40,154 bases of DNA, taken from a virus. The notes under the pieces are model-generated. The model saw only the letters and a list, made by a program, of their open reading frames with translations, had not been told where the DNA came from and did no database searches. The stretch's first letter is position 1; every line of letters begins with the position of its first letter. A program made the position numbers and the translations under genes. The stretch is from positions 1 through 40,154 of the IMG/VR virus record IMGVR_UViG_3300035661_000151; one strand, written 5' to 3'. Shown in pieces: positions 10,513-34,050 of this stretch.

Positions 10513-10766
10513 TGGCTCAGCGGACCAGCCGAGGCTACGTGACGGCGCCCGAGTGCGAGACCTGCGGCCGCGAGCGGTCGTGCGACGAGTGCGGCAACAC
10601 CGAGCACCTCTCGGAGTTCGTCAACGCCGACCTCTGCGCCGACTGCGCACGCGCCGCCCGCATCGCGGCCCTTGCCGCGCGCGTCGACGCCAAGCTCTCT
10701 CCGCCCGCGCCGGTGCTCCCGCGGCTCTCCCGCACGACGCTTCGCCCGCACGGGGTGACCGCGTGA
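10512..10766 (+). CDS. Small zinc-finger-like protein
   Basis: An 84-residue protein; ATG 10512 overlaps the previous stop. Its first half has three Cys pairs: CETCG, CDECG and CADC, with a Leu/Asp spacer, enough for one or two zinc knuckles. The second half is Pro/Arg-rich with no clear fold. Small Cys4 proteins like this are common in phage early operons and may bind nucleic acid or protein. The function is unknown. Confidence 0.6.
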   Translation: MAQRTSRGYVTAPECETCGRERSCDECGNTEHLSEFVNADLCADCARAARIAALAARVDAKLSPPAPVLPRLSRTTLRPHGVTA

Positions 10767-10963
10767 TCGCCGTCGAGGTGCTCGTCGCGACGCTGGTCGC
10801 TCGCGGCCGCCAAGCCGAGGCGTGCGAGGTCCGCGTCGCGAACGCGCAGGGCGGCCGACTCCTGCGATCGTTCCTGTCCGACCTGGAGATGCGCGAGGCC
10901 GACCGCGCGGGCGGCGTCCGCACCGCGATCGAGCTCGTGCGCATGGAGGTCCGCGATGCGTGA
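10763..10963 (+). CDS. Small helical early protein, unknown
   Basis: A 66-residue protein starting at GTG 10763 within a GTGA overlap with the gene before it and ending inside the start of the gene after it. It is mainly helical with an amphipathic N-terminus (IAVEVLVATLVARGRQ) and an acidic-basic mixed middle. No motif is recognised. Translation is supported by coupling on both sides. Confidence 0.5.
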   Translation: MIAVEVLVATLVARGRQAEACEVRVANAQGGRLLRSFLSDLEMREADRAGGVRTAIELVRMEVRDA

Positions 10964-11111
10964 CCTCGCCCTCGCCGACATCGGCGGCCGCCTCGCAGTC
11001 GTCCGCCGCGACGGCCTCTATCTCGCCACCTGCTCGCTCGCATGCGGCGTGGGCCTGACTCCCTCTTCCGCGCTCGCCGACATGTGCGCGCGCACCCGGA
11101 GCTTCCGATGA
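10956..11111 (+). CDS. Very small early protein
   Basis: A 51-residue frame from ATG 10956, overlapping the upstream stop by eight bases and ending in an ATGA overlap with the ATPase start at 11108. The sequence (MRDLALADIGGRLAVVRRDG, then LATCSLACGVG) has no recognised domain. It fills the only slot between two coupled genes, so it is probably translated, and it would deliver ribosomes to the ATPase gene. Confidence 0.5.
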   Translation: MRDLALADIGGRLAVVRRDGLYLATCSLACGVGLTPSSALADMCARTRSFR

Positions 11112-12652
11112 ACACGAACACGAACATGAACGGCCTACGGATTCACGAGGTCGAGATCCGGGACTTCCGCTGCATCTCCCACGCGCACGTCGACGTGAGC
11201 GAGGGCGGCGTCCTCGTCGAGGGGCCGAACGGCAAGGGGAAGACGTCGTTCCTCGGCGCCGTGATGGCGACGCTCATGGGGCGCGGCATCTCCGCCGACG
11301 CCGTGAAGGTCGGCGCCGACCGCGCGGAGATCCGCGTCGACCTCGGCGACGTGACTGTGCGCCGAGTGATCCCCCGCGACGGCACCCCCCGCGTCATCGT
11401 GCGACGCGCCGACGGGAGCGACGTCGCGAAGCCGGCCGCGTACCTCGCCGAGCTCCTCGGCGGCGGCTCGCTCGATCCGCTCGACATCTACCTCGCGTCG
11501 CCGAAGGAGCGGAAGCGGAAGATCCTCGCCGCGGTCCCGGCGCGGGTCACCGTCGAGCAGCTGCGGAAGTGGGTGCCCACGCTCCCCGACGACTTCCCCA
11601 CCGACGGCCACGCGCTGGAGGTACTCGAGCAGCTGCACGAAGTCGCCTACAAGCAGCGCGCCGACGCCAACGCCTCGGCGAAGCAGCTCCGCGCCGCCGC
11701 CGTCCTCGCGGCGCGCGTGTCGGCCGAGGCGCAGGTCCCGCCGGGCGCTCAGCCCGTCGCCGACGCCGAGGCTTCCGAGCGCGCGGCGTCCCGATCTCTG
11801 GCGCAGCTCGAGATGCAGGCCGACGCGGCGACGCGAGCGAGCGCGAAGGCCGAGGAAGGGTGGCGGACGGTCGCCTCGCAGCGCGAGGAGGCGAAGCGGC
11901 TCCGCGCGGCGGCCGTGCCGTCCGGCCAGGCGGCGGTCGCGCGCGCCGACGCCGACCGACTCGCGGCGGAGCGAGACGAGATCGTCGCGAAGCTCCGCGA
12001 CCTCGAGGCCAAGCTCTCGGCTGCGGTGCGGCATGCCGAGTCGACGGCTGCCCAGGTCGCGAGCGCACGCGCCGACCATGCGCGCGCCGCGCAGCTCGAC
12101 GCGTCGGCCGACGCGCTCGAACAGGCGCTCTCCGCGTCGTCGTTCGCGCCGGTCCCCGAGGGCGACATCGCTCGCGCCCGCGCCGACGTCGAGGCGGCGC
12201 TGCACGTGCTCGGCGAGGCCCGCGCTGCGGAGCGCGCCCGCAAGCTCGTTGAGGAAGCCGCCCAGGCCAACGAGCGAGCGAAGGGCGCCGAGACCGAGGC
12301 CGACCGACTCGACCGGATCGTGTGCGCGCTGCGCGACGACGCCCCCACCTCGATCTTGACCGAGGCCAATGCGATCCGCGGGCTCCGCATCGCCGGGGAC
12401 GACGTGTACCTCGACAACGTGAACATCGCGACGCGCAGCGGCGCCGAGCAGCTCACCTTCGCCGTCGAGATCGCCAAGCGGGCGCACACAGGCTCCGCAC
12501 GGCTGCTCGTCGTCGACGGGCTCGAGCGGCTCGACCCGGAGCAGCTCGAACGGTTCCTGCGCTCGGCGACGAGCGGCGGTTGGCAGGTGCTCGGGTCGCG
12601 CGTCGGCCCCGGCGAGTCGGTGAAGTTCCAGGCGATCGAAGGGGAGGTCTGA
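11108..12652 (+). CDS. RecF/SMC-like coiled-coil ATPase
   Basis: A 514-residue ABC/SMC-type ATPase. ATG 11108 is favoured by the ATGA overlap and a Thr/Asn lead-in. The N-terminus (LRIHEVEIRDFRCISHAHVD) is the typical RecF/Rad50 opening, followed by Walker A GPNGKGKTS at 39-47. A long Ala/Glu/Arg-rich coiled coil occupies about residues 180-430. The C-terminal lobe has a Walker B-like LLVVDGLERL. It resembles phage recombination ATPases of the Gp46/SbcC group, which load or power DNA end processing. It precedes the Erf and RecB-like genes, so a joint role in recombination-dependent replication is likely. Confidence 0.8.
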   Translation: MNTNTNMNGLRIHEVEIRDFRCISHAHVDVSEGGVLVEGPNGKGKTSFLGAVMATLMGRGISADAVKVGADRAEIRVDLGDVTVRRVIPRDGTPRVIVRRADGSDVAKPAAYLAELLGGGSLDPLDIYLASPKERKRKILAAVPARVTVEQLRKWVPTLPDDFPTDGHALEVLEQLHEVAYKQRADANASAKQLRAAAVLAARVSAEAQVPPGAQPVADAEASERAASRSLAQLEMQADAATRASAKAEEGWRTVASQREEAKRLRAAAVPSGQAAVARADADRLAAERDEIVAKLRDLEAKLSAAVRHAESTAAQVASARADHARAAQLDASADALEQALSASSFAPVPEGDIARARADVEAALHVLGEARAAERARKLVEEAAQANERAKGAETEADRLDRIVCALRDDAPTSILTEANAIRGLRIAGDDVYLDNVNIATRSGAEQLTFAVEIAKRAHTGSARLLVVDGLERLDPEQLERFLRSATSGGWQVLGSRVGPGESVKFQAIEGEV

Positions 12653-12653
12653 G

Positions 12654-13430
12654 ATGGACAACGAGTCGAACCAGGCCGGCAAGGCGTTCGCGACGGCCCT
12701 CGTGAAGGTTCAGGCGACGCTCGGCGGCGCCCGCAAGGTGGCCTTCAACCCCATGCACAAAAAGTCGTACGCGGACCTCGCGTCCGTGTGGGACGCGTGC
12801 CGCGAGCCGCTGACGGCCAACGGGTTCGCGGTGGTGCAGGAGGTCAGCTTCGATTCGCCGTGCGTGAAGGTGACGACGCGCCTCATGCACGCGAGCGGCG
12901 AGCAGCTCGCGTCGACGCTCTCGATGCCGGCCGGCGTCATGGAGAAGGGCGGCGCGCTCGGCGATCGCGTGACGCCGCAGAGCATCGGTAGCGCCATCAC
13001 CTACGCCCGCCGCTACGCGCTCGCGGCGATGGTCGGCGTGGCGCCCGTCGAGGACGACGACGACGGCGAGCGCGCGATGGGACGCGGGGGCGACGGCTAC
13101 GACCAGACGCGCCAGAGCTATCAGGAGCCGCGCCGCGAGGAGCCCAGGCAGTACACCTCGACCGTCGTTCAACCGCCCAAGACGCAGGGCGACCCCGCGC
13201 TGCTGGCGATCCTCAAGTCGGCGGCGTCGAAAGAGATTCGGCCCGGCGACATGGGTATGGCCAATACCTGGTGGGAGGCCCAGTACGACGCGCTCGCCAA
13301 GCTCTCGTCTGACGAGCGCAAGGCGCTCGAGGGGCACATCGCTGGCATCTGCCAGGCTGCGGACCGGACGCAGCCGGCCGCCGCGCCGAGCAACGGCAAC
13401 GGCGCCGCGCGCCGGGAGATGCGCCTGTGA
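12654..13430 (+). CDS. erf: Erf-family single-strand annealing protein
   Basis: A 258-residue ERF-type recombinase; ATG 12654 has GGGAGG upstream. The core is diagnostic: HKKSYADLASVWDACREPL, NGFAVVQ, then PQSIGSAITYARRYAL and an acidic stretch VEDDDDGE. The second half is a flexible Gln/Arg linker and a helical C-terminal segment (KLSSDERKALEGHIAG). Erf proteins anneal complementary single strands and circularise phage DNA. It sits with an ATPase before it and a nuclease after it, the usual exonuclease/annealase layout. Confidence 0.85.
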   Translation: MDNESNQAGKAFATALVKVQATLGGARKVAFNPMHKKSYADLASVWDACREPLTANGFAVVQEVSFDSPCVKVTTRLMHASGEQLASTLSMPAGVMEKGGALGDRVTPQSIGSAITYARRYALAAMVGVAPVEDDDDGERAMGRGGDGYDQTRQSYQEPRREEPRQYTSTVVQPPKTQGDPALLAILKSAASKEIRPGDMGMANTWWEAQYDALAKLSSDERKALEGHIAGICQAADRTQPAAAPSNGNGAARREMRL

Positions 13431-14308
13431 GCGCCGCGGGGTTCCGCTTCTCGGCGTCGTCGGTGCGCGAGTACCTGACCTGCCCGAAGCGCGCGGCCTT
13501 CCGCTACGTCGACCGCCGCCGGACGCCGATGGTCGCGCGCATGGCGCTCGGCCGCGTCGGTCATGCGGTCGCCGAGCTCGGCCCGCGCCGCATCCTCGCG
13601 GGGTTGCCACTGCCGACTAGCGAGGAGATCCGCGACGTCGCCGAGAGCTTTGCCGCGGGCATCAAGCCCGAAGTCGCGTGGGCGAAGGACGAGACCGAAG
13701 ACCGAGAGCTTCTGGGCGCGCGCGGCGCCGCCATCGGTGAGGCGTACCTGCGCGATGTCGTGCCGCTCCTGTCGCTGGTCTCCGTTGAGGACCCGTTCGA
13801 CGAGACCATCGAGGGCGTGACCGTGCGCGGACGGGTCGACGTGGTTGAGACCATCGGAGTGCGCGAAACGAAGACGAAGATGCGCGCGGGGAGCGCGTGG
13901 GGAGAGCCCGCGGAGCGACTGCAGCTCGGCATGTACGCGATCGTCTGGCAGCCGGAGTTGAAGGTGCCACTCGAGGGAACGATCGACACGCTCGTGCTGT
14001 CGGAGACGAAGGCGCGCGGGCGCGAGGTGCGGCACCTTCCCGTCTACCTGCCCGCCGAGGAGCTCGCCGCCGAGGCCGAAGCTGCGCGCGCCGCGGTGCG
14101 CTTCATCGCGGCGGCGTCCGAGCGCGGCGACTACCCGCGCAACCCGACGGCGTGCTCGACGTGGGGCGAGCCCTGCCCGTTCCTCGCCGAGTGCATGCCG
14201 GGGCGCGCGAGCGCGGTCGAGCGCGCCGAGGCAGCGAAGGCCGAGGCTGCGGCCGCGAAGCCCGCCAAGCCCGCGGCGAAGGCGGCGAAGTCCGTGATGG
14301 TGCTGTGA
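13427..14308 (+). CDS. RecB/Cas4-like PD-(D/E)XK nuclease, Fe-S type
   Basis: A 293-residue protein from GTG 13427 in a GTGA overlap with erf. It starts SASSVREYLTCPKRAAFRY, as RecB/Cas4-like nucleases do. The catalytic core is GRVDVVE, then RETKTK (E-x-K), then QLGMYA. One Cys near the start (C19) plus C243, C250 and C256 (CSTWGEPCPFLAEC) match the four-Cys 4Fe-4S pattern of AddB/Cas4 enzymes. A Lys/Ala-rich tail follows. It probably resects DNA ends for the Erf annealing protein. No cas1/cas2 or repeat array is present, so a CRISPR role is not supported. Confidence 0.8.
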   Translation: MSAAGFRFSASSVREYLTCPKRAAFRYVDRRRTPMVARMALGRVGHAVAELGPRRILAGLPLPTSEEIRDVAESFAAGIKPEVAWAKDETEDRELLGARGAAIGEAYLRDVVPLLSLVSVEDPFDETIEGVTVRGRVDVVETIGVRETKTKMRAGSAWGEPAERLQLGMYAIVWQPELKVPLEGTIDTLVLSETKARGREVRHLPVYLPAEELAAEAEAARAAVRFIAAASERGDYPRNPTACSTWGEPCPFLAECMPGRASAVERAEAAKAEAAAAKPAKPAAKAAKSVMVL

Positions 14309-14562
14309 TGCGCAGCTTCTTCCTCGTCTGGCGCGAGTGGAATGAGCGTTCGCCGGCCGCTGGCTGCAACGAGCCGAAGTTCCGACACGAGACGTACGCC
14401 ACCGCGAAGCGCGAGGCCGAACGTCTCGCGCGCAAGAACCCGGGCGCGCGCTTCTTCGTCGTGAAGACGTTGAGCGTCGTCGAGAAGCCGCACCGGCCCA
14501 TCACGACCGAGCTGCATGACCCCGAATGGGTGCCGGACACCATCCCGGCGCCGTCGATCTGA
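14308..14562 (+). CDS. Small protein between nuclease and SSB, unknown
   Basis: An 84-residue protein whose ATG 14308 shares a base with the upstream stop. It begins RSFFLVWREW and contains an alternating basic helix (YATAKREAEREARL-type, with AKREAERLARKNPG), then FFVVKTL. The pattern strand, helix, strand is typical of small phage proteins that hitch to replication operons. The Pro/Ile C-terminus has no known motif. No family is recognised. Confidence 0.55.
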   Translation: MRSFFLVWREWNERSPAAGCNEPKFRHETYATAKREAERLARKNPGARFFVVKTLSVVEKPHRPITTELHDPEWVPDTIPAPSI

Positions 14563-14575
14563 GAGGAGTAGGGCG

Positions 14576-15121
14576 ATGGCCGATGGGCTGAACCAGGTTA
14601 ATCTGATCGGGAACCTCGGGGCGGACCCCGAGCTGCGCTTCGGGCAGGGGAGCGGGTCCGCCGTGCTCCGCATGCGGATGGCCATCAACGGCCGCTACAA
14701 GAGCGGCGAGGAGTGGAAGGAGACCGTCGAGTGGGTGAGCGTCGTCGTCTTTGGCGCGCGCGCCGAGGGGCTCCAGAAGATCCTCGCGAAGGGCGACCGC
14801 GTGGGCATCGTCGGGCGACTCCAGACGCGCAGCTACGAAAAGGACGGCGAGAAGCGCTACTCGACGGAAGTCGTCGCGAGCGAGGTCATCCTGTGCGGCG
14901 GCGGTGCGCGCGAGGACAGCTCGCAGTTCGGCCCGCCGCGGGGGCGCGAGGGTGGCCGAGATGGTGGCCGTGACAGCGGGCGCGAGCAGCGCCGGCCGCC
15001 CCCCGCGCAGGACCGCCCGAACTTCGGGCGCCCGCCCGCACAGGCGCCGCAGTCGACGCAGGCCGATGACGGTCGCGGCTACCCGCCGAACTGGGACGAC
15101 ACCGACGACATCCCGTACTGA
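14576..15121 (+). CDS. ssb: Single-stranded DNA-binding protein
   Basis: A 181-residue SSB; ATG 14576 follows GAGAGGAG. The OB fold is clear: LNQVNLIGNLGADPELRF, then VSVVVFG, VGIVGRLQTRSYE and STEVVASEVIL. A Gly/Arg/Gln-rich linker follows and the protein ends in the acidic tip DDTDDIPY, close to the DDDIPF consensus by which SSB recruits partners. It protects single strands during replication and recombination and fits with the neighbouring annealase, ATPase and clamp genes. Confidence 0.95.
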   Translation: MADGLNQVNLIGNLGADPELRFGQGSGSAVLRMRMAINGRYKSGEEWKETVEWVSVVVFGARAEGLQKILAKGDRVGIVGRLQTRSYEKDGEKRYSTEVVASEVILCGGGAREDSSQFGPPRGREGGRDGGRDSGREQRRPPPAQDRPNFGRPPAQAPQSTQADDGRGYPPNWDDTDDIPY

Positions 15122-15491
15122 CCGCCCGCTCCTCGCGGGGCGCAGCGGCGCGCTCGACCCCGGCTCCGCCCACGGGAACCGTGAGTCTCCCCAGGTCGAC
15201 GCGCCACTGGGCCTCGCGAGGAGAGAAACAGAATGCCGAGTATCCGCGGACCCCCGTCCGAGCTGGCGAGCTGAAACGCTCTCGCCTGCGAGTGGGCCAG
15301 AAGCCCGTGTGCGCGTGCAACCCTTCGGAGACTGACCGCCATGCGTCCCGCGCCGTAATGGGCGCTCCAGACGACACCCGCGCGGCTGACGGCCGCTCCT
15401 GACGACCAATAGCGATGGCTCGGAAGACGACTGCGCCAGCAGCGCAGGCAGCTCGAGGCTGCGCGACCGCCCCCACGACACGGAGGAACAC
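15122..15491 (+). other. 370-bp gap between ssb and the clamp operon
   Basis: No supportable gene. It contains a possible hairpin GGCGAG with CTCGCC around a ten-base loop (near 15264-15290), a sequence ATAGCGATGG at about 15409 that also occurs at the leftward operator, and short open frames with no ribosome-binding site. I searched it by eye for a tRNA with a CTA anticodon and found none. It may hold a promoter or small RNA. Confidence 0.5.
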
Positions 15492-15683
15492 ATGGACAAT
15501 GAGCTGCGCGCCGCCGTGCGCGAGTACCTGGCTGCCGTCGACGGCGACTGCTGCGCCGACAAGGCGGAGTTCGCGACCGAGGACCCGCGCTTCACCTACG
15601 CACGCAAGAGGATCGAGACCGCCCGCGACCGCATGCGCGAGGCCCTGAGCGCGGCGACCGCCGCAGAGAGGATGGTTGCGTGA
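15492..15683 (+). CDS. Small helical protein before the clamp gene
   Basis: A 63-residue protein; ATG 15492 is preceded by GGAGGAAC. It is acidic at the N-terminus with two neighbouring Cys (DGDCCADK) and otherwise helical (YARKRIETARDRMREALS). It ends in a TGATG overlap with the clamp start. No family is recognised. A role with the clamp or its loading is possible only by position. Confidence 0.6.
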   Translation: MDNELRAAVREYLAAVDGDCCADKAEFATEDPRFTYARKRIETARDRMREALSAATAAERMVA

Positions 15684-16813
15684 TGGACCTCGTGATCCCC
15701 AAGGCCAAGCTCGTCGACCTCGCCGAGAGCGCCGTGAGCTGCGTCAGCCCGAAGTCGTCGACCTCGCAGCTCCGCATGGCGCGCGTCGAGCTGCGCGGCT
15801 CGGAGCTGAGCGTCGTCGGCACGGACCTCATGCGCACGATCGAGGCGCGCGCGAACTGCGACGCGCGCCAGATGGGCGCCGTGCTCGTCGACGCGAAGCG
15901 CCTGCTCGAATGCGCCCGCGCGCTCCCGGCCGCGCCGGTCCGCATCGTCGCCGACGCCAAGGCGCTCACGCTCTCCGCCGAGAAGCGCAAGTTCTCGCTC
16001 GAGACCGTGCGCGTCGAGGACTACCCGCACGTCGAGGCGTGGCCGGAGCGCGCGAAGACGTGGACGATGCCGTCGGAGGCCCTCCGCCGCCTGGTGAAGC
16101 GCGCGCAGCATGCGGCCTCGACGGACACGACGCGCCCGCACCTGAACTGCGTGGCGCTCGAGGAGCACGCGTTCAAGCGGAGCGGCAAGCTGTCCGGCAA
16201 GGTCGGCTCGCGCGCGAGCGCGACGGACGGGTATCGCCTCGCCGCCGTCCACGGGCCGGAGCGCTGGGGCGGTCCGAAGGCGCTGGTCCCCGAAGCGGCG
16301 GTCTCCCTCCTGCTCTCGCTTGCCGATCGCGGCGACACCGTGGAGTTCGCGTCCGTGTCCGATTCCGCGATGCACGCGCGGTGCGGCGACCGCTCCATCC
16401 GGATCGCCGTCTACGACGCTCAGCAGCCGCCGATCGAGCAGGTGATTCCGAGCCAGTCCGCGCACTGCGTCACGGTCGAGCGGTCCGTGCTCCGCAACGC
16501 GATCGCGGCGATCTCTCGTGCCTCGTCGGCCGCGACCGGCTCGATCGTGCTGACCTTCTCCGCAGGCCACATCCGCGTCGAGGCCGCGAGCAACGATTCG
16601 GGCGGCGTCGGCGGCGACGACGAGGTGGCGTGCGAGGGCGGCCCCGGCGAGCCCGTGAAGATCGGCATGAACGCGAAGTACTTGCTCGACCCGCTCGACG
16701 CCTTCGACTGCGAGACCGTCGCTGTCGACTTCGGTGGCGAGCTCGACCCCGTGGTGTTCCGAGACCCTGACCTGATCGACGACGTGTTGATCGGAATGCC
16801 GATGAGGATCTGA
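15683..16813 (+). CDS. DnaN-like DNA polymerase sliding clamp
   Basis: A 376-residue protein with the three-domain layout of the beta clamp. Supporting segments include VSPKSSTSQLRMARVELRG, VVGTDLMRTIEAR, YRLAAVHGPE and the C-terminal domain KIGMNAKYLLDPLDAFDC, then ending VLIGMPMRI where DnaN normally has the final MPMR/L segment. It would form a ring that holds a polymerase or partner on DNA. No phage polymerase is in the window, so it may work with the host enzyme, compete with the host clamp, or recruit phage proteins. A clamp is uncommon in a temperate phage of this size. Confidence 0.8.
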   Translation: MDLVIPKAKLVDLAESAVSCVSPKSSTSQLRMARVELRGSELSVVGTDLMRTIEARANCDARQMGAVLVDAKRLLECARALPAAPVRIVADAKALTLSAEKRKFSLETVRVEDYPHVEAWPERAKTWTMPSEALRRLVKRAQHAASTDTTRPHLNCVALEEHAFKRSGKLSGKVGSRASATDGYRLAAVHGPERWGGPKALVPEAAVSLLLSLADRGDTVEFASVSDSAMHARCGDRSIRIAVYDAQQPPIEQVIPSQSAHCVTVERSVLRNAIAAISRASSAATGSIVLTFSAGHIRVEAASNDSGGVGGDDEVACEGGPGEPVKIGMNAKYLLDPLDAFDCETVAVDFGGELDPVVFRDPDLIDDVLIGMPMRI

Positions 16814-16815
16814 AC

Positions 16816-18489
16816 ATGGGAGCCTGCTCACCCAAGGAATACACCGACTTCGTGCGGAGCAAGCTGCGCACGGAGGTGCCGAGCGGACTCGCGCGCGTGC
16901 CCGAGCTCAACGAGCGGCTGTTCCCGTTCCAGCGTGACGTGGTGGCGTGGGCGCTCCAGCGCGGGCGCGCCGCCATCTTCGCGGACTGCGGGCTCGGCAA
17001 GACGGCCATGCAGCTCGAATGGGCGCAGCGCGTCGTCGAGCACACGGGCGGGCGCGTGCTCATCCTCGCGCCGCTAGCTGTCGCGCCGCAGACGTGCCGC
17101 GAGGGCCAGAAGTTCGGCATCGAGGTGCGGTACGCACACAAGCAGTCCGAGGTCCGCGACGGCATCACCATCGCGAACTACGAACGGCTCGACCGGTTCG
17201 ACGTCGAGACGTTCGCCGGCGTGGTGCTCGACGAGTCCAGCATCCTCAAGGCCTTCGTCGGCAAGACGAAACGCGCGCTGGTCGAGCGGTGCCAGCGCGT
17301 GCCGTACCGGCTCGCGTGCACGGCGACGCCTGCGCCCAACGATCACATGGAGCTTGGCAACCACAGCGAGTTCCTCGGCCTCTTGCAAGGCAACGAGATG
17401 CTGGGCCGCTGGTTCATCAACGACACGTCGAGCTTCGGCAGCTACCGCCTCAAGGGGCACGCGGTCGTTCCATTCTGGGATTGGGTCTCGTTGTGGGCGA
17501 TGATGGTCGGCAAGCCCTCGGACATCGGGCACGACGACGCCGGCTACGACATGCCGGAGCTGCACGTGTTCCCTCACGTCGTCGACGTCGACGTGACCAC
17601 GGACCGCGGCGGTGCGCTGTTCCGGATCCCCGGGATGAGCGCGACGAAGGTGCACGAGGAGAAGCGGCGGACCGTCGATGACCGCGCGCGGCGCGTCGCC
17701 GAGCTGGTCGCCGCGGAGCCCGACGAGTCGTGGATCGTCTGGTGCGACACGGACTACGAGGCCGACGCGCTCACGAAGGCGATGCCCGGCGCCGTCGAGG
17801 TGCGCGGCTCGCACAAGGTCGAGGCGAAGGAGCGCGCGGCACTCGACTTCGTGGACGGGAAGATTCGCACGCTCGTGAGCAAGCCGCGGATCTTCGGGTG
17901 GGGGATGAACTGGCAGCACTGCGCGCGCGTCGCCTTCGTCGGCGCGACGTACAGCTACGAGTCATTCTACCAGGCCATCCGGCGCACGTGGCGGTTCGGC
18001 CAGACGCGGCCCGTGCACGCGCACGTGATGGTCGCGACGACGGAGATGGACGTGTGGAACGCGATGCTCTCGAAGCAGCGCGAGCACGTCGAGATGCAGG
18101 CGCAGATGTTCGCGGCCGCGCGCCGCGCGCAGTCGAGGCGTGACGGTGGGCGTTCGGAAGCGGTCCCAGCACCCCGCAATGGCCCCCTCCGCGCGCGCCG
18201 AGCGGGGCAGGCCCCTGGTGTCGTTCAGCCTAACGACGGAGGCGCTGGAGGCCATCGCCGAGGCCGACGGGACGCGGCGCAGCGCCGTCGTCGTGCGGCT
18301 CGCCATCGAGGAGCGCGCGCGCCGCGGCATCTGAACGACGAAACCCCCGAAGCCTCGCGGCTCCGGGGGTCGTCTGCGTTCACTCGCCTTCGGGGGTATC
18401 GGGTCCGTCGCGCAGACGCTTCACCTCGCCCTCCAGCGTGGTCACGCGGGTGCCGAGCACGGCCTGGTCCCGCCGCACCTCGTCGATGA
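16816..18489 (+). CDS. SNF2-like SF2 helicase, 3' end uncertain
   Basis: A 557-codon frame. Residues 1-440 form a phage SNF2-type helicase: Walker A DCGLGKT at 57-63, motif II as LDESSILK, motif III CTATPAPND, and motif VI YQAIRRTWRFGQ. After about residue 435 the frame becomes an Arg/Ala-rich tail that runs through a second gene (18140-18334), the hairpin at 18343-18370 and into the antisense gene 18380-18628. That tail is probably not real coding. The true end is more likely near 18140, implying a frameshift, an assembly indel or a programmed event there. It may remodel replication forks. Confidence 0.7.
   Translation: MGACSPKEYTDFVRSKLRTEVPSGLARVPELNERLFPFQRDVVAWALQRGRAAIFADCGLGKTAMQLEWAQRVVEHTGGRVLILAPLAVAPQTCREGQKFGIEVRYAHKQSEVRDGITIANYERLDRFDVETFAGVVLDESSILKAFVGKTKRALVERCQRVPYRLACTATPAPNDHMELGNHSEFLGLLQGNEMLGRWFINDTSSFGSYRLKGHAVVPFWDWVSLWAMMVGKPSDIGHDDAGYDMPELHVFPHVVDVDVTTDRGGALFRIPGMSATKVHEEKRRTVDDRARRVAELVAAEPDESWIVWCDTDYEADALTKAMPGAVEVRGSHKVEAKERAALDFVDGKIRTLVSKPRIFGWGMNWQHCARVAFVGATYSYESFYQAIRRTWRFGQTRPVHAHVMVATTEMDVWNAMLSKQREHVEMQAQMFAAARRAQSRRDGGRSEAVPAPRNGPLRARRAGQAPGVVQPNDGGAGGHRRGRRDAAQRRRRAARHRGARAPRHLNDETPEASRLRGSSAFTRLRGYRVRRADASPRPPAWSRGCRARPGPAAPRR
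18140..18334 (+). CDS. Small ribbon-helix-helix-like protein
   Basis: A 64-residue protein starting at GTG 18140. The pattern SFSLTTEALEAIAEADG, followed by TRRSAVVVRLAIEE, is a ribbon-helix-helix: a short strand (PLVSFSL) and two helices. It lies wholly within the 3' extension of the helicase frame and stops just before the terminator hairpin, as expected for the last gene of the early operon. It could be a transcription regulator for the early or late switch. The domain is better supported than the helicase tail it overlaps. Confidence 0.65.
   Translation: MTVGVRKRSQHPAMAPSARAERGRPLVSFSLTTEALEAIAEADGTRRSAVVVRLAIEERARRGI
18343..18370. terminator. Terminator hairpin between convergent operons
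   Basis: ACCCCCGAAGCC and GGCTCCGGGGGT form a 12-bp stem with one mismatch and a TCGC loop. It lies between the end of the rightward early operon and the end of the leftward late operon and can act in both directions. There is no clear T-run. Confidence 0.75.
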
Positions 18490-18628
18490 TCCCCAGCTTG
18501 GTTTCGAGCTTGTCGATCCGGCCGACCGTGACGTCGAGCTTCTCGGTCGCCTTGCTCATCTGCATCGAGGCGCGGATCACGAGGCCGATCGCTGCGAGCA
18601 GCGCGGCGTTGTCGAGGCTGACGTTCAC
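18380..18628 (-). CDS. Small membrane-anchored coiled-coil protein (lysis region)
   Basis: An 82-residue protein from GTG 18628 in a GTGA overlap with the lysozyme stop. A short hydrophobic N-terminus (AALLAAIGLVIRASM) is followed by a regular coiled coil (KLDVTVGRIDKLETKLG and VTTLEGEVKRLRDG). TM plus coiled coil is typical of small lysis-cassette proteins such as holin- or spanin-like partners, and it sits right after the GH25 enzyme at the end of the late operon. No TAG inside. The class is inferred. Confidence 0.6.
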   Translation of the reverse strand: MNVSLDNAALLAAIGLVIRASMQMSKATEKLDVTVGRIDKLETKLGIIDEVRRDQAVLGTRVTTLEGEVKRLRDGPDTPEGE

Positions 18629-19557
18629 GCCGCACCTCCGGCCGCGAGCTACAACGGAGCCACTATCGACTCGGCTCGGGGCATCTCGGGGACGGCCGGC
18701 GCGAGCGCCGTCACGACCGCATCGATCGTTGCGTCGTCGAGCTGCCCCGTCGCGGCGAGCCCCTGCGTGGCCTGCCAGGCGCGCAGGCAGCGCTCCGTCT
18801 GCGGTCCCCACCGGCCGTCCGGCGACGCGCCGACGAGCCGTTGGATGGTCGCGAGCGGGGGCGCGGTGGGGAGCGGGTGCGGCTCGCCGACCTTCGACCT
18901 CTCGACGAACAGCTCGACGTCGCGATCGTCGACGTCGCCGTCGCCGTCCTCGTCCTTCGCGAAGACGTCGCGATCGATGTCGGTCCGGCACCCCGCGACC
19001 CGCTCGCCGCCGTCGCCCGAGTACTGCCAGGCGGCGAAGCGGCCGGCCCACTGCGAGGGGACGAGCGGGCGCGCCGCGCTCGTGTAGTGCGCCGTCCACA
19101 GCTCGCGCTTCGCGAGCGGCGAGTCGGCCGGCCACTTCACGGAGTCGGTGAACCCCTTGCCGGTGTAGATGACGCACTCGCGCCCGGTGACGTGCTCGAC
19201 GAAGCGGACCCAACGGACCGCGGCGCCGTGCTCGTCGCGCCCGTGCACCTCCCAGTCGAGCACCGGCGGAAGGTCGTCATCCGTGGGCACGTACGCGCGG
19301 CAGAAGGCGCGCGCCTGCGCCTCTACGTCGCCGCTCGGGTAGACGACGCCGTAGGCGCCGAAGCGGAGCCCTGCTGCACGCGCGCCCGCGCGGTACTCGT
19401 TGAAGCGCGAGTCATGGGTCTCGCCGTTCACCGCGCGCGCAATGACGCCGACGATTCGGCGCCCGTCGGGCGAGCGCCACGCGGCGAGCGCGGCGAAGTC
19501 GACCTCTCCCTACAGGGACGAGACGTCGACGAACAGCAGGCCTGCAGGGGTACTCAT
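18625..19557 (-). CDS. GH25 lysozyme with peptidoglycan-binding domain, two recoded TAGs
   Basis: A 310-residue endolysin if TAG is read as sense at codons 16 (19510-19512) and 303 (18649-18651). ATG 19557 has GAGGA upstream. The start reads LLFVDVSSL-TAG-GEVDF; in GH25 enzymes this is the conserved DVSxxQG segment, so the TAG sits on the invariant Gln. The catalytic pair is D101/E103 (VLDWEV), and a family-typical WQYSGDG and DIDRDVF follow. A peptidoglycan-binding domain (IQRLVGASPDGRWGPQTE) ends the protein. The final TGA overlaps the next gene's GTG, which only works if the second TAG is read through. The enzyme hydrolyses murein to release progeny. Confidence 0.9.
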
Positions 19558-19567
19558 TCGGGTCCTC

Positions 19568-20440
19568 TCAGATCGCGTCGACGCGCATCATCATGTCGGG
19601 CTGGTTCTTGTCCGGGAACGTCTTCACGGTGCCGTCGGGGAAGGCCACGCGGACGTGCAGGTAGTAGGTCCCGACGGCGAGCGACTGCACCTCGTCGTCG
19701 AGCCACTAGTGACGCCACCATCCCTCGCTCGGCGTCAGGGGGGAGAGCGTCAGCGCGCCTGTCGCGCCGTGCTGGTGCCGCCACAGGAGCACGGCCGATG
19801 CCTCGACGCACGGCACGCCTCCGTCATTGTCGCGCACCTGCACGTCGAGCGCGGGCGCGTTGTCGCCCTGATAGATCGCGTAGGTCGACACGGGCACACC
19901 TCGAAGATAGAGCGCCACAGCTCGGCGCGGGGTGACGAGAGCGAGCGAGCGCTGCGATGGTTCGGCGACAAGCGCGCTGCGGCGGTGAACGGCGACGGAG
20001 CCCGCGCGCGCAGGCGCAGCGGCGAGAAGTGCGCTTCGACGCCAGAGCGCGATCGCGATCGTGTAGGGGGGCTCGCCTCCTCGCGGGTCGAACCCGATCG
20101 CGGTGATCGACGAGAAGTCCCCGCCGCCCGCGCCGGTGATGACGAGTCGAGCCACGCCAGCGCCGACGAGCGGCGAGAGCGATCCAGCGCCCACGCCGAC
20201 GAACGCGAACGCGCCGGCACCCGAAGCGACGAGCGGCGAGACGGCCCCGCCGCCCGAGGCGACGAACGTCTCCGTGCCGAGCCCGAAGCCGACCAGCGAC
20301 GAGAGCGAGCCCACTCCGCTGGCGACGAACGCGAGCTCGCCCGCGCCCGTCGCGGTCAGCGAAGAGATCGAGCCGACGCCCGACGCGAGGTAGACGGTCG
20401 GCGCGGTCTATTGAACGATCGAAACGAAGGCGCCGAGCAC
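19568..20440 (-). CDS. Gly-rich virion protein with BppU-like C-terminus, two recoded TAGs
   Basis: A 290-residue protein, GTG 20440 preceded by GGAGGTGC, with TAG at codon 11 (20408-20410, after Gln) and codon 245 (19706-19708). Residues about 20-110 repeat GVGSxSSL-like Gly/Ser/Val units, probably a beta-rich fibre stalk. Residues about 180-290 resemble the N-terminal domain of BppU-type baseplate proteins: YAIYQGDNAPALDVQVRD and, on the far side of the second TAG, GTYYLHVRVAFPDGTVKTFP. That this known domain spans the TAG is good evidence that it is sense. Likely a fibre or receptor-binding accessory. Confidence 0.7.
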
Positions 20441-20511
20441 GCTGCACCTCCGCGTGCGAGGTCAGAGAAGATCGCGGGCGCCCGCGAGACTGCGAGCGCC
20501 CGCGTGCCGGT

Positions 20512-21126
20512 TCAGACCGGGACCTCTTCCCAGCAGGCCGACATGATGACGAGCGGCGAGGTGCCGGCCGCCGCGATGCCGGCCATGCACAGCACGGCGC
20601 CCGGAGCGATGATGATCTCCCCCTGCACGTCGTCGACGAGCGGGGCGCTGATCGACGCAGTGGTCGCGAGGAAGGCGCCGAGGACGTACGCGGGGCGGAG
20701 GATGGTCGGCAGCGTGATCGTCGCGCCGTTCCACGCGAGCCCGACGCCGGTGGACGCGTTGCCGATCACGGCATTGCGGACGGCGAGCGCGGTGCCTCCG
20801 GTGTACCCGGAGACGCCGCCCGCGTAGACGATCGAGCCGCCGCCGAGGGTGCCGCTGACGTAGCCGAGCGACGTGCGCATCAGGACGAGGTTCTTGCCGC
20901 TGCCGGCGGGGTTGGCCAGGCAGAACGTGGGCGTCGTGGAGAGCGCGGTGCCGGGCGCGACGCCGGTGGGGAGGTTCGACGCCATGAAGAGGCCGCCGCG
21001 GTAGGCCGGCTCGTAGAATCGACCGTGCGAGTCGCTGATGGCGACCGTTCCGTCCTTGAGCAACCGCGGGGGCTGCTGCACGCCATCCTGGAGAGCCTAG
21101 GGGCCGACGCGACCTTCAATTTGCAT
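20512..21126 (-). CDS. Virion structural protein, recoded TAG at codon 10
   Basis: A 204-residue protein; ATG 21126 has GGAG seven bases upstream. TAG at 21097-21099 is codon 10 (GRVGP-TAG-ALQDG). The body is beta-rich and Gly/Ala/Thr-rich (GTALSTTPTFCLANPAGSG, YVSGTLGGGSIVYAGG), a composition common in head-fibre or decoration proteins of tailed phages. The C-terminus (IIIAPGAVLCMAGIAAAGT) is apolar and ends in WEEVPV. A start after the TAG is possible in principle, but the best ribosome-binding site is at the ATG before it. Confidence 0.65.
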
Positions 21127-21142
21127 GTTAATTCTCCGATTG

Positions 21143-22051
21143 TCAGGTGTTCACGGTGGTGGTCGTGACTGCCATTGCAGCGCCGGCCGGGAGCATGTGC
21201 GCGAGCGTCGCGCTGATGTATGAGAGCAAGACCACGACTTCCTCGAGAAGCTTTCGTGCGTCCTCGTCGTACGTGCGCACGCTCGTCGCGCCGTTGCGCA
21301 GCTGAACGCCTACAGGCCGTACGAGGCCTCGTTCGTCGACGCCGGCGACCGCGACAGGCGCGGCCTTCTGCTCGGCGCCAGAGGCCTCGCGGCCGACGAC
21401 GCCAGAGTTCGGCGACAGCGAGACGACGAGCGCGGGGTCTGCCGCTGCGGCCGCTACGCTCGCAGCCTTCACCGCAGCAGCGTTCGTGCCGTCGGTGATT
21501 CGATGGTAGATGCCGCGCGCAGCCGCGTCGCCCGTTGGCATCGCGTTCGTGCCGTCGGTGACGGTGACGAATCCGCGTCGCGCAGCCGCATCCATCGTCG
21601 GCATCGCGAACGCGCCATCCGCGTCGGTGATTCGCACCGCGGTCCACGTTGGCAGCGTGTTCGCGCCCGCGGGCCGGACTACGATGCCGGTGGCGTTCGC
21701 GCTCGCAGCGCGAGCTACGGTGTCGGGGCACGCCTGCGCGTTGCCCTGGTCGACGAGCGACTCGACCGCGATGCGCGTCAGTTCCCAGGCCTCGCGCAGA
21801 GACGGGTCGACGATGTTGACTGCGAGCGCGTTGCGCCCGTTGATGTGCTCGACGTCGATCGCGCGTCCGTCATTGTCGCCGTCGGCGATGACGACGGGAA
21901 GCGGGTTCGTCATCGTGACGGGGCCGCCGTCGACGCCGGCCGGCCCGGTGTAGAGCTTCGACGCGGGGATCTTGATGCCGCCGCCGACGTCCTCCGCGCG
22001 CGCGGTGTCCCCGCCACCTACCGCGGGATTCAGCTGGATGTTGTCGGCCAC
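21143..22051 (-). CDS. Virion structural protein with repeated TDGTNA-type motifs
   Basis: A 302-residue protein without TAG. It has a series of related units ITDADGAFAMPTMDAAA, VTDGTNAMPTGDAAARG and ITDGTNAAAVKAA, then PALVVSLSPNSG, a combination widespread in phage tail/fibre structural proteins. An N-terminal segment with NPLPVVIADGDNDG and a helical C-terminus with a weak hydrophobic stretch (LLEEVVVLLSYISATLAHML) flank it. It lies within the fibre and lysis-proximal cluster. Its exact place in the virion is unknown. Confidence 0.65.
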   Translation of the reverse strand: MADNIQLNPAVGGGDTARAEDVGGGIKIPASKLYTGPAGVDGGPVTMTNPLPVVIADGDNDGRAIDVEHINGRNALAVNIVDPSLREAWELTRIAVESLVDQGNAQACPDTVARAASANATGIVVRPAGANTLPTWTAVRITDADGAFAMPTMDAAARRGFVTVTDGTNAMPTGDAAARGIYHRITDGTNAAAVKAASVAAAAADPALVVSLSPNSGVVGREASGAEQKAAPVAVAGVDERGLVRPVGVQLRNGATSVRTYDEDARKLLEEVVVLLSYISATLAHMLPAGAAMAVTTTTVNT

Positions 22052-22063
22052 GTCAGCCTCCGA

Positions 22064-22468
22064 TCACGCGGGGAAGGTCTCGCTGTAGGAGCCGACCGCG
22101 GCGATCGCGCCCATGACGAACGTCGTCGCGCCGAAGTTGAGATTGCATCCGCTCGCGCCCGCAGACCCGTCGAGAATCGGCGTGTGGTCCGCCTTCGTCA
22201 GCCGGTACCATGCGGGGTCCCCCGTCGCGAGGATCGCCGCGCTGCCGATGCCGCCGACGGTGATGCTCGCGACGCCGCCGGCCGCCGCCGCGAACGGCGT
22301 GGCAGAGAGCGGGAGGCGCACGAGCATGGTCTACGTCGTGACCGCGGAGTCGGCGTCGTTGGGCTGGTCCCCGTCGTAGACGTCGACGAACCCGCTCGCC
22401 GCATCCGCGAGGATCATGTCGAGCCCCGCGTCGCGGTACCGGACCGCGAGCTTGCTGTTCAGGCTCAC
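22064..22468 (-). CDS. Small structural protein, recoded TAG at codon 46
   Basis: A 134-residue protein from GTG 22468, which overlaps the previous gene's TGA. The N-terminal half ends DSAVTT-TAG-TMLVRLPLS (TAG 22331-22333), and the remaining 88 residues (GGVASITVGGIGSAAILATG, then WYRLTKADHTPILDGSAG) look like a compact beta domain. The half after the TAG has no plausible start of its own upstream of the conserved region apart from an internal Met. Such proteins sit in fibre clusters of Mu-like phages. Function unknown. Confidence 0.6.
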
Positions 22469-22668
22469 GGCATCGCCTCGATTTGCTACAGGGCGAGCTC
22501 GGTCGGGCTCGGCAGCGGCATCGCGGCCTCGACGGCGGCGGCGACGGAGCCCGAGAGCTTCCCCTCGCGGTACGCGCCCGTCACGAGGTCGGCGATCTCC
22601 GGGAACAGCTTGAACGCAGCGCCCAGGATGAGCGAGCCCACCTCGACGATCTTGCCGGCGTCAGCCAT
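22465..22668 (-). CDS. Small protein with recoded TAG seven codons from its end
   Basis: A 67-residue protein from ATG 22668, overlapping the previous stop. It is mostly helical and apolar (IVEVGSLILGAAFKLFPEIA). TAG at codon 61 (22486-22488) is followed by QIEAMP and a TGA that overlaps the start of the next gene. If TAG were a stop the product would be complete except for six residues, but the next gene's start would lose its translational coupling. This is one of the clearest cases where TAG decides coupling rather than protein content. Confidence 0.65.
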
Positions 22669-23422
22669 CGATCCCTCCGTCCGTACGCACGCACGTCCCG
22701 AGCTGGTTCGCCGCGACCTGCGCCATGAAGCTGGTGGCGAAGTCCACGGTCGTGGGGATCTTCGCGCCGAACGCGCGCGCCCCGTCGATCTGCGCGAGCA
22801 GCGCGTTCTTCGTGTCGAGCATCGCGCACGCCGGCGCGCCCGCGCTCCCATCGATCCACGCGTCGACCGCGTAGCCGGCCGTGACCAGCTCGGCGCGCGT
22901 CTTCACGTATGCGTCGTCGCAGGCGTGCGCGATGGCCTCGCCCTTCGCCTTGTCGCCCGCTCGAGCGGTCGCGAGCGCGACGTCGGCGCACAGCTCGTCG
23001 ACAATGCGAGACGCGCCGGCGGCCGTCACGATGGACGTGCCGACGTCGCGCTAGACCGTCTGCGCCGACGGGAGCGACGAGCACGAGGCCAGCGCCGCGG
23101 GGAGCGCGAGCGCCACGACTGCGAGCGCTGCGCTCGCGAGCCCGAGGAAGCGTGCGAGCGCGCGCTTCGCGAGATCCTGCGCCGCCGGCGGGAGCATCGC
23201 CTCGGCGATCCGCAGGATGCCCTGGAGGATCTTCGGCGCGTCGAATCCGAGACCGCGCGCGACCTCGATCGTGCCGGCGAGCGCCGGGTGCTTGCCCTTG
23301 TACGCGGCCCACCACGCCGAGCCCGCGATGCGGAGGGAGATCGAGACGACCGCGACCAGGACGTATGCGGTCATGTACGGGTGCGCCGCGATGAACGCGC
23401 GCGCGGAGTCGAAAATCTGCAT
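22661..23422 (-). CDS. Membrane protein with recoded TAG after a lipobox-like segment
   Basis: A 253-residue product if TAG at codon 124 (23051-23053) is read. Residues 1-123 contain a first hydrophobic helix (YVLVAVVSISLRIAG, about 20-34) and a second one ending LALPAALASCSS, with C114 in a lipobox-like setting. After the TAG come 129 soluble residues (TSIVTAAGASRIVDELCAD, KTRAELVTAGYAV, with several Cys). Termination at TAG would leave a 123-residue two-helix protein of holin-like size; readthrough adds a soluble domain. Its nearness to the lysozyme suggests envelope or lysis function, but no family is recognised. Confidence 0.6.
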
Positions 23423-23430
23423 GGTGGTCC

Positions 23431-24387
23431 TCACGAGTAGAAGTCTGCGCCGTCGGTCACAACGAGCGCGCGCGAGCCGTTGGCGACGGTCGTCGTCGCG
23501 CCAGTCGCTCCCTTCACGATGACCGAGAAGGCGCCCGTGCACGCGTTAATGATGTGCCACGCGCGGCCGGGGGTGAGCGGCAGCACGAGGTTGCGGTTCG
23601 CCGTGATCGCGCCGGTCAGACGCAGCACGTACTTGTCCGTCACCACCGACGCAGGCGTCTGGTTCGCGTCGGCCATGGCGATGACCGCGAAGCCGGGCGG
23701 CCCCCACGAGCCGTCTCCGTGGAACGACTTGTACGCCTCGCCAGGCAGGCTCACGAGGCCGTAGCCGCCGATCGTCGCCGGGAAGTAGGTTCCCGTCGCG
23801 CAAATCGACTAGTCGTCTCCGATGTTCACCGCAGTGACCGCCGCCCCCACGGGGAGCGCGACTTGCGCGCCGCCACGGTCGAGTACTACTGCGTTCGTCG
23901 TGAAGTTCTTCGCCGTCCAGATGTGGCCGTCCGGGACCGCGATCCCGTCGAGGAGGACCGTGACGTCCCCGAGCGTCGACCCGTAGAAGTAGATGGAATC
24001 CGCATTGGCTTCGGCCTCCGTCGGCGCGATCTCGTCGTTGGCGCCAGAGAGGTCGATACGGGCCTCCCGCCGTGCGGATGAGATCGAACGGAACGCCGAG
24101 CCCGTCGAGTACACGAGCGAGCTCGTGCCGTGCGCGACGATCGCCCCGGCGCCGGTGGCCCCCTGCACGGTGATGCTGAACCCGCCCGTTGTCTGGTTCA
24201 GGACGATCCACCCGCCGTCCTTGAACGGGAGCTACAACGCGCGCGGGGCCGTCAGCGTGCCGGTCAGGACGAGGACCTGCGCCTTCGCCTCGGCGTCGCT
24301 CGCGACCGTCGGGAGCGACGTGTCGCCGATGGTGACCGTCGCGCGACCGCCGAACCGGAACGCCTCACCAAGCCATTCGAAGGACAT
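23431..24387 (-). CDS. Tail-fibre-like protein with duplicated domain, two recoded TAGs
   Basis: A 318-residue protein from ATG 24387 with TAG at codons 52 (24232-24234) and 193 (23809-23811). It contains the same beta unit twice, near residues 40-105 and 255-318: TGTLTAPRAL-TAG-LPF, then TTGGFSITVQGATGAG; and TGAITANRNLVLPL, then CTGAFSVIVKGATGA. Such LTGxxTAxRxLxxP units are common in tail fibres and baseplate-attached proteins. The first TAG falls inside the duplicated unit, so the unit only folds if it is sense. The second lies between the two copies. Confidence 0.7.
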
Positions 24388-24399
24388 GCATGCTCGCTT

Positions 24400-25173
24400 T
24401 CAGGGCCGGATGGCCATCGCGCGGAGGGAGAGCACCTGCGCGCTCGACGACGTGCCGTTGTCCTGCGCCTTGCTCTGCACCTTGATCCCGTACGTTCCGC
24501 CGGCGCCGACGGTGCGCTGAAAGATGATGGTCGGGAACGCCGCCACCAGCACGTCGGAGACCTGCGGGCCGAGCGCCGCGCCTTCGGTGACGGCGGAGTA
24601 GGCGCCGCCATTCTCCGAGACGAGGAGCTGCACGACGCTATTGTTTTTCAGCGCGCACCCGAGCTGCACGAAGCACTCGACGCGCACGATGTCGTACTAC
24701 TGCAGCCCGGGGATCGAGATCGCCGCGCCCGAGATGTCTCCGTAGGTGCTCGACGTCGTGGTGCGCGTGGCGACGGACGCCACCGACGTCGCGGCCACGA
24801 TTCGGTTGACCGGCGCGTAGTTCGCGAGGATGTGGACCCAGCGCCCGCCGCCGACCGTCGGCGCAACGATCCACGGAAGCGTCTCGGTCGCGCTCGACCC
24901 GGAGTCGTAGCGATAGAGCCCAACGCCCGGGACGAGCCGCAAGTCCTTCGTCGCGAGCCCAGCGACGGAGATGGCCTTGAGCGCCGTGACGTCTGCGGCC
25001 TCCCGCAGGAGCTTCACGCCGAGCGACTCGGCGAGCGCCTGCAGGTACGCGGTGCGGTCCGCGAGCGTCTGGAATGGCGTCTACACGCTCGCGGCGGTGC
25101 GCGCGTCGCCGCCGGCGGGGACCACGACGGGGCCGGCGAAACTTGCGGAGCTGTCGATCAGAGTCGTAGGCAT
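24400..25173 (-). CDS. Tail-fibre-like protein, two recoded TAGs
   Basis: A 257-residue protein from ATG 25173 with TAG at codons 31 (25081-25083) and 159 (24697-24699). Three open pieces in one frame join into a fibre-like protein: an N-terminal segment, a central YRYDSGSSATETLPWIVAP region typical of fibre/baseplate connectors, then IPGLQ-TAG-YDIVRVECFVQ leading into a beta-rich C-terminus (KVQSKAQDNGTSSSAQVLSL). The second TAG is flanked by CAG. It follows the gpI-like gene, where fibre genes are expected. Confidence 0.7.
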
Positions 25174-25176
25174 CGG

Positions 25177-25827
25177 TCACACTCCCAGGTAGGCGACGGT
25201 CGCGCCCCACGTGCCGGCTTCGTCCCACGAGCCGTCCGGGTAGTCCCAGAGCTCGCCGGACAGGATGACGATCAAGCTGGCGCAAACGGAGTGCGCCGCC
25301 TTCCACTTGCGGATCAGGCGCTGGAGGAACAGCACCGTCTCGGTCGGTTCGAGGTCGGTCCAGAGCCCGCCGTCACCCCACGTGCCGGGGTCGCTCCAGA
25401 GGTCCGGCATCGAGAAGCCGTTCGGCAGCCCGACGATGACCCAAAATCGCCACCAGTCCGCGCCCGCGCGCGCATCGGCGGCCCAGTCCGAGTCCTCGAG
25501 GACGACGGCCGTCGACGCGCCGGCCTCGGTCAGCGCGGCCTGCAGTCCCGCCTTCGTCGCCCCGCGGAGGTACGCGGCGAACGCGCGCCGGAGCCGCTCG
25601 CGGAATGACACGTCGGACTCGCCGGGGATTCGCTCGAGCTTCCGGTCCGCGGCGTGCGCCGCGAGCGCGTCCTCGGGCGCGAACGCCACCCAGCGAGCCG
25701 CGACAGCCTGCGTCGCAGCCTCGGCGAGCGCGTTCGCGACGGTGGCGACGATGCTGCTCCAGCGCCGCCCCCACTTCCGCGACAGGTAGCGCTGGTGCGC
25801 GCGGACGGCGAAGTCGAGGTAGCTCAC
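25177..25827 (-). CDS. Baseplate/tail protein, P2 gpI/Mu gp48-like
   Basis: A 216-residue protein from GTG 25827 in a GTGA overlap with the J-like gene. The order J-like then I-like is the standard contractile-tail baseplate pair. The helical N-terminal half (ATVANALAEAATQAVAARW, then IPGESDVSFRERLRRAF) and the Trp/Gly/Asp-rich C-terminal half (DPGTWGDGGLWTD, then GELWDYPDGSW) fit gpI-type proteins that connect baseplate to fibres. No TAG. The family call rests on position plus these features. Confidence 0.7.
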   Translation of the reverse strand: MSYLDFAVRAHQRYLSRKWGRRWSSIVATVANALAEAATQAVAARWVAFAPEDALAAHAADRKLERIPGESDVSFRERLRRAFAAYLRGATKAGLQAALTEAGASTAVVLEDSDWAADARAGADWWRFWVIVGLPNGFSMPDLWSDPGTWGDGGLWTDLEPTETVLFLQRLIRKWKAAHSVCASLIVILSGELWDYPDGSWDEAGTWGATVAYLGV

Positions 25828-26942
25828 GCGGTCACCCACGACAGCGAGTTGACGAAGGTCGCCATCTCGCCGGTGCCGAGCACCACGTTTGCCGCTGGTG
25901 TCGCCAGCGAGACGTCGAGCACGCCCTGTACCTCCATGATGAGTTGCACGAGCTTCGACAGGATGACGGTGGACCCGAGGTCGAGCGACGCCGTATACGC
26001 GGTCAGCGCGGACGTCAGCGCTGCCTGCGCGGAGGCGAGCCGCGCGGCTTCAACCGTCACAGTGCCGGTCAGCGTCACGGTGTGGTTGACGGCCGGCGAG
26101 ATGTGCAGCGTCACGCACAGGGGGCGCTTCGCGTTAGACTCGAACGCCGTCGAGACAGCCGTCGAGACCGAGCCGTCGACTGGGCCGCTCGGCCCCGCGA
26201 GGTACGCGGTGACGTGCCCGCCGCTCGGCGTGGCCTCGTAGACCTGCACCCGCGTCGCCTGCGTCGTGAAAGCGCGCGCCCAGAAACGGTAGTAGCCCGC
26301 CATAGCGCCCGGGCTCAGCGCGTCCCACCGGTCGCCGCAGCGCTGCGACAGGCTCTCGTCGCTCTCGTCGTCGGTGCCCTGCGTCGTGATCCACGCGAGG
26401 CCCGGAGCCGCCGAGATCGAGACGCCAGGGAGCGGCGTCGACAGCGACGTGATGGCCTCGCCGCCGACGTTGTACGCGAAGCCAGGCGACTCGGCCTTCC
26501 ACGCGAGCGTGAGCGACGTCGGGCTCCCGACGCTGCCCGCGGCGAGCGTCCCGCTCGTCGTGTTGCGGTAGTAGAGCCCGTTCGTCGACTGCGCGACGAG
26601 CTGCCCGGCCGAAACCGTGTAGGGCGTCGCCGAGACGTTCGTCAGCGTGGCGTCGCCGACCGTGAACGTCGCGAGGTTCCGCTCGACGCTGTAGAAATCG
26701 GACGCGTGGAGGGTGAGCCAGCCGCCCTTCGCGAGCGTGCGGAAACCGCTCGCGGCGATGTTCTAGATGGTGATCGACGCGTCGGCGATGACCTTCGCGA
26801 AGGCCCCAACGAGCGTGCGCGGGCCGCTCGTCGAGTGCCAGCTCGTGACCGGGAAGCCGGCCGTCGATAGCAGGTCGAGGATCGTCTACGTCACGCCCGC
26901 CGTGGTGAGCGGCGTCAGGAGCGACGAGAGGGAGATGGCCAC
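25824..26942 (-). CDS. Baseplate J-like protein, two recoded TAGs
   Basis: A 372-residue baseplate wedge protein (Mu gp47/P2 J family) from GTG 26942, with TAG at codons 19 (26886-26888) and 60 (26763-26765). Family features are ATFTVGDATLTNVS, the stretch DDESDESLSQRCGDRWDALS, and VEAARLASAQAAL leading to the domain that ends VLGTGEMATFVN. The first 60 residues, which hold both TAGs, include the helical opening expected for this family. The stop overlaps the next gene's GTG, so the frame is firmly placed at its 3' end. Confidence 0.85.
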
Positions 26943-26949
26943 GCGTACC

Positions 26950-27351
26950 TCACGTGATGGTGATGGCCTCGACGCTGAGCTACGTCGCGGCGAGCACGAG
27001 CTTGAAGGCGCCGGCGCCGGTCTGCCCGACGACGGAGACCGTGAGCGACGCGCCGGAGAAGGCCACCGTCACGTCGACGGACAGGACGCGCTCGTCTTTG
27101 AGGCACTCGCCCTGCACGCCGTTCTGGATGGCGAGCAGCGCCGAGCTGTCAATGTCCGCGTTCAGCCAGCGCCGCAGGTCGTAGCCGGCCTCGGGATCCC
27201 AGTCGAGATCCTTGCGGCCGATCTCGAATCGGCGGGCGAGCGCCTGCGCGACGACGACGGGGCCAGCGAGGGTGCCGAAGTACGGGTCGAGGTCGAGCTC
27301 GCCGTCCTCGTTCAGCTTGTAGAAATCCCAGTCGGTGCCGAGGTCGGTCAC
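26950..27351 (-). CDS. Baseplate wedge gp25/gpW-like protein (Mu gp46 type), recoded TAG
   Basis: A 133-residue protein from GTG 27351, which overlaps the previous stop. The core (LDLDPYFGTLAGPVVVAQAL, then RRFEIGRKDLDWDPEAGYDL and LRRWLN) fits the small gp25/gpW-like wedge proteins of contractile tails. TAG at codon 124 (26980-26982) leaves nine further residues (LSVEAITIT) before TGA. Termination at TAG would remove only a short beta tail. It lies directly upstream of the J-like gene, its usual partner. Confidence 0.75.
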
Positions 27352-28421: not shown

Positions 28422-28482
28422 CGTCGCGCCCTTGCAGTGGAGCAGCGCGGTCAGCGCCTCGTGCGAGCGCGGGCGCGGAGGC

Positions 28483-29732: not shown

Positions 29733-29736
29733 GCGT

Positions 29737-31683: not shown

Positions 31684-31686
31684 GGG

Positions 31687-32159: not shown

Positions 32160-32163
32160 CGCC

Positions 32164-32628: not shown

Positions 32629-32643
32629 GTGCGGTTGCCTCCG

Positions 32644-34035: not shown

Positions 34036-34050
34036 CGAGGGATCCTCTCG

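Follow-up and report, generated by a model that had tools for sequence, protein, structure and literature searches.

The question raised by this locus is what the codon TAG means in a gene that it interrupts and yet does not seem to end. The window analyzed here (the whole 40,154-nucleotide stretch, positions 1 to 40,154 of IMG/VR virus record IMGVR_UViG_3300035661_000151) encodes a GH25 endolysin of 310 codons, and an earlier note had reported a TAG within it, in the context DVSSL-TAG-GEVDF. The TAG is real and lies on the minus strand, which the note had not specified: positions 19510-19512 read CTA on the plus strand and TAG on the minus strand, and the product reads MSTPAGLLFVDVSSL-X-GEVDF, X being TAG codon 16. 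In the alignment to profile PF01183 that the note had proposed, with TAG entered as X, the protein scored 79 bits (cut-off 27), residues 9-182 matching positions 1-175 of the 180-position profile. A PG_binding_1 domain lies toward the C-terminus (residues 244-279), the protein also matches PHROG endolysins, and the catalytic acids are kept in the motifs D-V-S, D-W-E and D-x-D, with D10, D100, E102 and D194 invariant in an alignment of GH25 sequences. The endolysin thus shares with the GH25 lysozymes of PF01183 the whole domain, the catalytic D, D-x-E and D, and the position of the glutamine, but it writes that glutamine as TAG and has L for W/Y/H before the site and F for W after it. An AlphaFold model of the lysozyme built without an alignment gave a pLDDT of 42 and was set aside. 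Searches of cultured phages with DNA and with the lysozyme protein gave no match. The features discussed below are collected in Table 1.

Table 1 Features of the window that bear on the meaning of TAG.
Feature	Coordinates	Strand	Remarks
Integrase	3915..5387	-	No TAG
HTH-type repressor-like gene (weak), immunity region	8163..8678	+	Below Pfam cut-off
ImmA/IrrE-like (Peptidase_M78) gene	8739..9344	+	Ends in TAG, true stop
Convergent gene, 9 bases from 8739-9344	9354..9815	-	Ends in TAG, true stop
Replication/recombination module (Erf, exonuclease, SSB, clamp, helicase)	10108..18489	+	No in-frame TAG, no TAG stop
Late operon (head, tail, baseplate, fibre, lysis)	18625..39563	-	25 in-frame TAGs; gene ends TGA/TAA only
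GH25 endolysin, 310 aa	18625..19557	-	GH25 domain, acidic linker, PG_binding_1 domain
Endolysin TAG codon 16	19510..19512	-	At conserved Gln of DVSxxQG
Endolysin second TAG, codon 303	18649..18651	-	Near C-terminus
Baseplate J protein, TAG codon 19	26886..26888	-	Gene 25824-26942
Baseplate J protein, second TAG, codon 60	26763-26765	-	
Tape measure protein, TAG codon 268	30880..30882	-	Gene 29737-31683
Tail sheath, TAG codon 21	33973..33975	-	Gene 32644-34035
Neck-region gene, TAG codon 85	34309..34311	-	Gene 34051-34563
Major capsid protein (Mu-like gpT), TAG codon 20	36795..36797	-	Gene 35916-36854
Head gene, TAG codon 16	37533..37535	-	Gene 36867-37580
Head maturation protease, TAG codon 10	38722..38724	-	Gene 37582-38751

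The earlier note had called the glutamine at this site invariant. It is strongly conserved rather than invariant: among 50 bacterial GH25 domains taken from genomes of the phylum to which the closest host MAG (metagenome-assembled genome) belongs the column held Q in 45, N in three and D in two, and it was Q in all 12 of a varied set of phage GH25 endolysins. By eye, from printed alignments, the residue is Q in PDB structure 1jfx and K in 4kru. With the window protein left out of its training set, a GH25 HMM gave Q as the best residue at the TAG site, 2.4 bits over N and 3.8 bits over X. The column favors Q over N by 3.3 nats, or about 28-fold, which is the widest glutamine margin among the TAG columns, so that the note was right to single out this site; as evidence standing alone it is too weak. 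A single column of a divergent family member cannot assign a codon, and although the site supports glutamine, it is the pooled columns of the late genes that carry the assignment.

To call the late genes we used a codon-usage gene finder in which TAG was left neutral. This gave 30 minus-strand genes between 18625 and 40022, 19 of which contain the 25 in-frame TAGs, whereas 29 genes end in TGA, one in TAA and none in TAG. The 25 TAGs fall within 7006 late codons versus none in about 5500 early codons (Fisher p = 5e-7). Opening TAG raised the gene-finder score of the late genes from 2741 to 3068 and lowered that of the early genes from 1844 to 1766; neither score gained from opening TGA or TAA. 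The codon score remained positive after all 25 late TAGs.

The residue was then read from the TAG columns together: a profile was made from homologues at each column, and the log odds of all 20 residues were summed over the columns; sense codons put through the same procedure served as the control. Over 17 columns Q, at 8.8, came out 11.4 nats ahead of the second-ranked residue, A, at -2.6; without the lysozyme the scores were 5.8 and -0.5, and the lead was 6.3 nats. The 17-column set is an extension, with closer relatives, of a smaller earlier homologue set of 16 columns, in which Q was ahead by 10.0 nats. In the controls, sense codons with at least eight columns were read correctly in 41 of 41 cases, CAG samples of equal size were called Q in 99% of draws, and for non-Gln codons at that sample size the rate of Q calls was 0.5% or less. 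The signal is uneven: at several TAG columns glutamine is not the favored residue, the lead is carried by the GH25 site together with capsid codon 20, baseplate 19, neck gene 85 and tape measure 268, and dropping the three best glutamine sites, a deliberately one-sided test, erases the lead. At tape measure 268 all three closest relatives have CAG, at neck gene 85 all three have CAG or CAA, and at capsid 20, where glutamine is the commonest residue across the homologues, two of the three (the two closest prophages) have CAG or CAA. Taking these comparisons together, TAG in the late genes almost certainly means glutamine.

It is very unlikely that TAG is a sense codon in the late genes but specifies another residue (Ser, Ala, Arg, Asn, Tyr or pyrrolysine). 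Alanine is favored at baseplate codon 60 and glutamate at codon 31 of gene 24400-25173, and asparagine is present in the GH25 and capsid columns. In the pooled test, however, alanine trailed glutamine by the 11.4 nats given above, arginine by 12.5, glutamate and serine by about 13, and asparagine by 17.6, and in the 16-column set tyrosine and tryptophan were more than 30 nats behind. Moreover, CAG to TAG is a single transition.

The glutamine reading put forward in the earlier note is supported for the late genes but does not extend to the whole genome, as two genes of the immunity region stop at TAG. Past the TAG of gene 8739-9344 the codon score falls from +0.30 to -0.18 per codon, and readthrough of either this gene or its convergent neighbor 9354-9815 would run antisense across the partner. 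A candidate early gene, 8739-9866, with an in-frame TAG was rejected, since by the codon scores it stops at that TAG (9342-9344). Across both stops runs the short inverted repeat TAGCC-ACAAG-GGCTA. Because these two immunity-region genes end in TAG, the meaning of TAG appears to switch between modules, against a uniform code; its role as a true stop rests on the two genes.

The nearest relatives of the window phage are two distinct prophages of this phage group (L083 and L084) found in one deltaproteobacterial MAG, NC_groundwater_361 (71% GC), with capsid proteins 57-60% identical to that of the window. Other relatives are an IMG/VR contig (capsid 57%), Myxococcus phage Mx4 (capsid 36%; GC 70.1%, PMC8530038) and G383, another genome from the family of NC_groundwater_361 (sheath 47%, baseplate 49%). 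One search of genome contigs with the sheath as query and one of viral contigs with the baseplate as query found no relative. The window phage has the features of an Mx4-like Mu-head myophage in the shared order (Mu gpT capsid, Mu protease, gp36, contractile sheath, baseplate J), and Mx4 and the NC_groundwater_361 prophages share with it the Mu-like head, contractile tail and gene order. They differ from it in that their aligned late genes lack in-frame TAG; indeed, no in-frame TAG was seen in the homologous late genes of any relative found. Unlike the late genes of the window phage, those of Mx4 use TAG as a normal stop (11 of 28 genes), as do six of 67 late genes in the prophage relatives. 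Window gene 22064-22468 has its closest match (71%, L277:8581-8754) at the edge of G383 contig C481, and owing to this position a single sequence represents the recoded column (codon 46) there. As judged from the homologous late genes, which are free of in-frame TAG, the recoding is private to the window phage among the relatives found, and it is probably recent.

Could the host itself read TAG as glutamine, the phage merely following a cellular code? A host code would be consistent with the outcome of the tRNA searches: no credible suppressor tRNA came up in the 40 kb window, whether with ARAGORN (normal or relaxed thresholds), with Rfam models or with a custom scan for CTA anticodon arms, nor was one found in the phage regions of the relatives. 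We consider a host code very unlikely, however, given that two immunity-region genes end in TAG, that early genes lack in-frame TAG, and that relatives in the likely host lineage have no in-frame TAGs and end some of their late genes in TAG. The phage record is itself incomplete. It lacks terminase and portal, and in G383 (contig C103) about 11 kb, including portal and terminase, lie between the homologue of 39567-40022 and the integrase homologue; if the order is the same, roughly 7 kb of phage would be missing here. The record ends in a run of G just upstream of 39567-40022, and so this gene, which matches part of a 418-aa ORF in G383 (53%), looks to be cut by the contig end. No overlapping viral contigs were found with exact patterns from both ends of the record.

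Still less probable is programmed low-level readthrough of ordinary stops with no change of code. The TAGs are often close to gene starts, nine of 25 lying within the first 25 codons versus 2.7 expected (p = 8e-4), an enrichment noticed post hoc and dependent on the start calls. The starts of the capsid, sheath, adaptor and baseplate genes are backed by relatives that align from residue 1-4, and the TAGs close to gene starts include endolysin codon 16, protease codon 10 and, in the genes just named, capsid codon 20, sheath codon 21, adaptor codon 18 and baseplate codon 19. Nevertheless, the 25 sites stand in varied nucleotide contexts, capsid and sheath are required in many copies, and TAG ends no late gene. 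It is extremely unlikely that the late genes are in decay or that their TAGs come from sequencing error, as might be feared of a metagenomic record without a cultured phage. TAG alone is affected, the coding signal goes on downstream, and an independent contig from a second metagenome (L082, 3300035180), which covers 17116-22554 with three mismatches in 5439 bases and none at a TAG, has the same bases, so that the endolysin TAG is not an assembly error and the argument from error is in the main refuted.

The integrase points to a temperate phage, and the record very probably represents a temperate, contractile-tailed, Mu-head phage of 70.6% GC in which late-gene TAG is read as glutamine. We infer that a glutamine-charged tRNA with anticodon CUA would be made, or become effective, late in infection; its gene might lie in the missing part of the phage or in the host. 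Late in infection this tRNA would read through the TAGs, such that capsid, tail and lysis proteins would not be completed early or in the lysogen. Terminated at codon 16, the endolysin would be a 15-residue peptide lacking the catalytic domain.

Recoding of TAG to glutamine (code 15) is established in phages, glutamine having been proved by mass spectra in two crAss-like phages (PMC9523058), and code 15 phages include crAss-like phages, phAss-1 and others (PMC9523058, PMC10607447, PMC11210395). Holding back late genes is a proposed role of recoding (work cited in PMC11210395). The window phage resembles these phages in using TAG as glutamine in structural and lytic genes, in its standard-code early genes and in the proposed late switch. 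It differs in its GC content (70.6% versus 44.5% for phAss-1), in having about one or two TAGs per late gene together with an integrase, and in its relatives, which are in deltaproteobacteria, whereas most reports of code 15 phages come from Firmicutes and Bacteroidetes of the gut (PMC9523058). No suppressor tRNA was found in the 40 kb, although among predicted code 15 phages just 52% have one (PMC11210395). Code 15 recoding is thus a known phage trick, found here in an unusual lineage and GC class.

For gene annotation the consequence is direct, as standard gene calling breaks the 19 TAG-containing late genes, the endolysin among them. That a temperate phage of 70% GC recodes when its nearest relatives do not suggests new origins of recoding elsewhere, and its unrecoded prophage relatives offer a before-and-after comparison. 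The idea of a code switch can be tested directly here, since immunity genes stop at TAG and late genes would read it as glutamine. Tentatively, and as one possibility that we would not favor outright, this may be a recently recoded temperate phage of a GC-rich deltaproteobacterial (myxobacterial-type) lineage, in which TAG locks near the starts of many virion and lysis genes, together with TAG stops kept in immunity genes, would let a single tRNA act as master switch between lysogeny and the making of virions.
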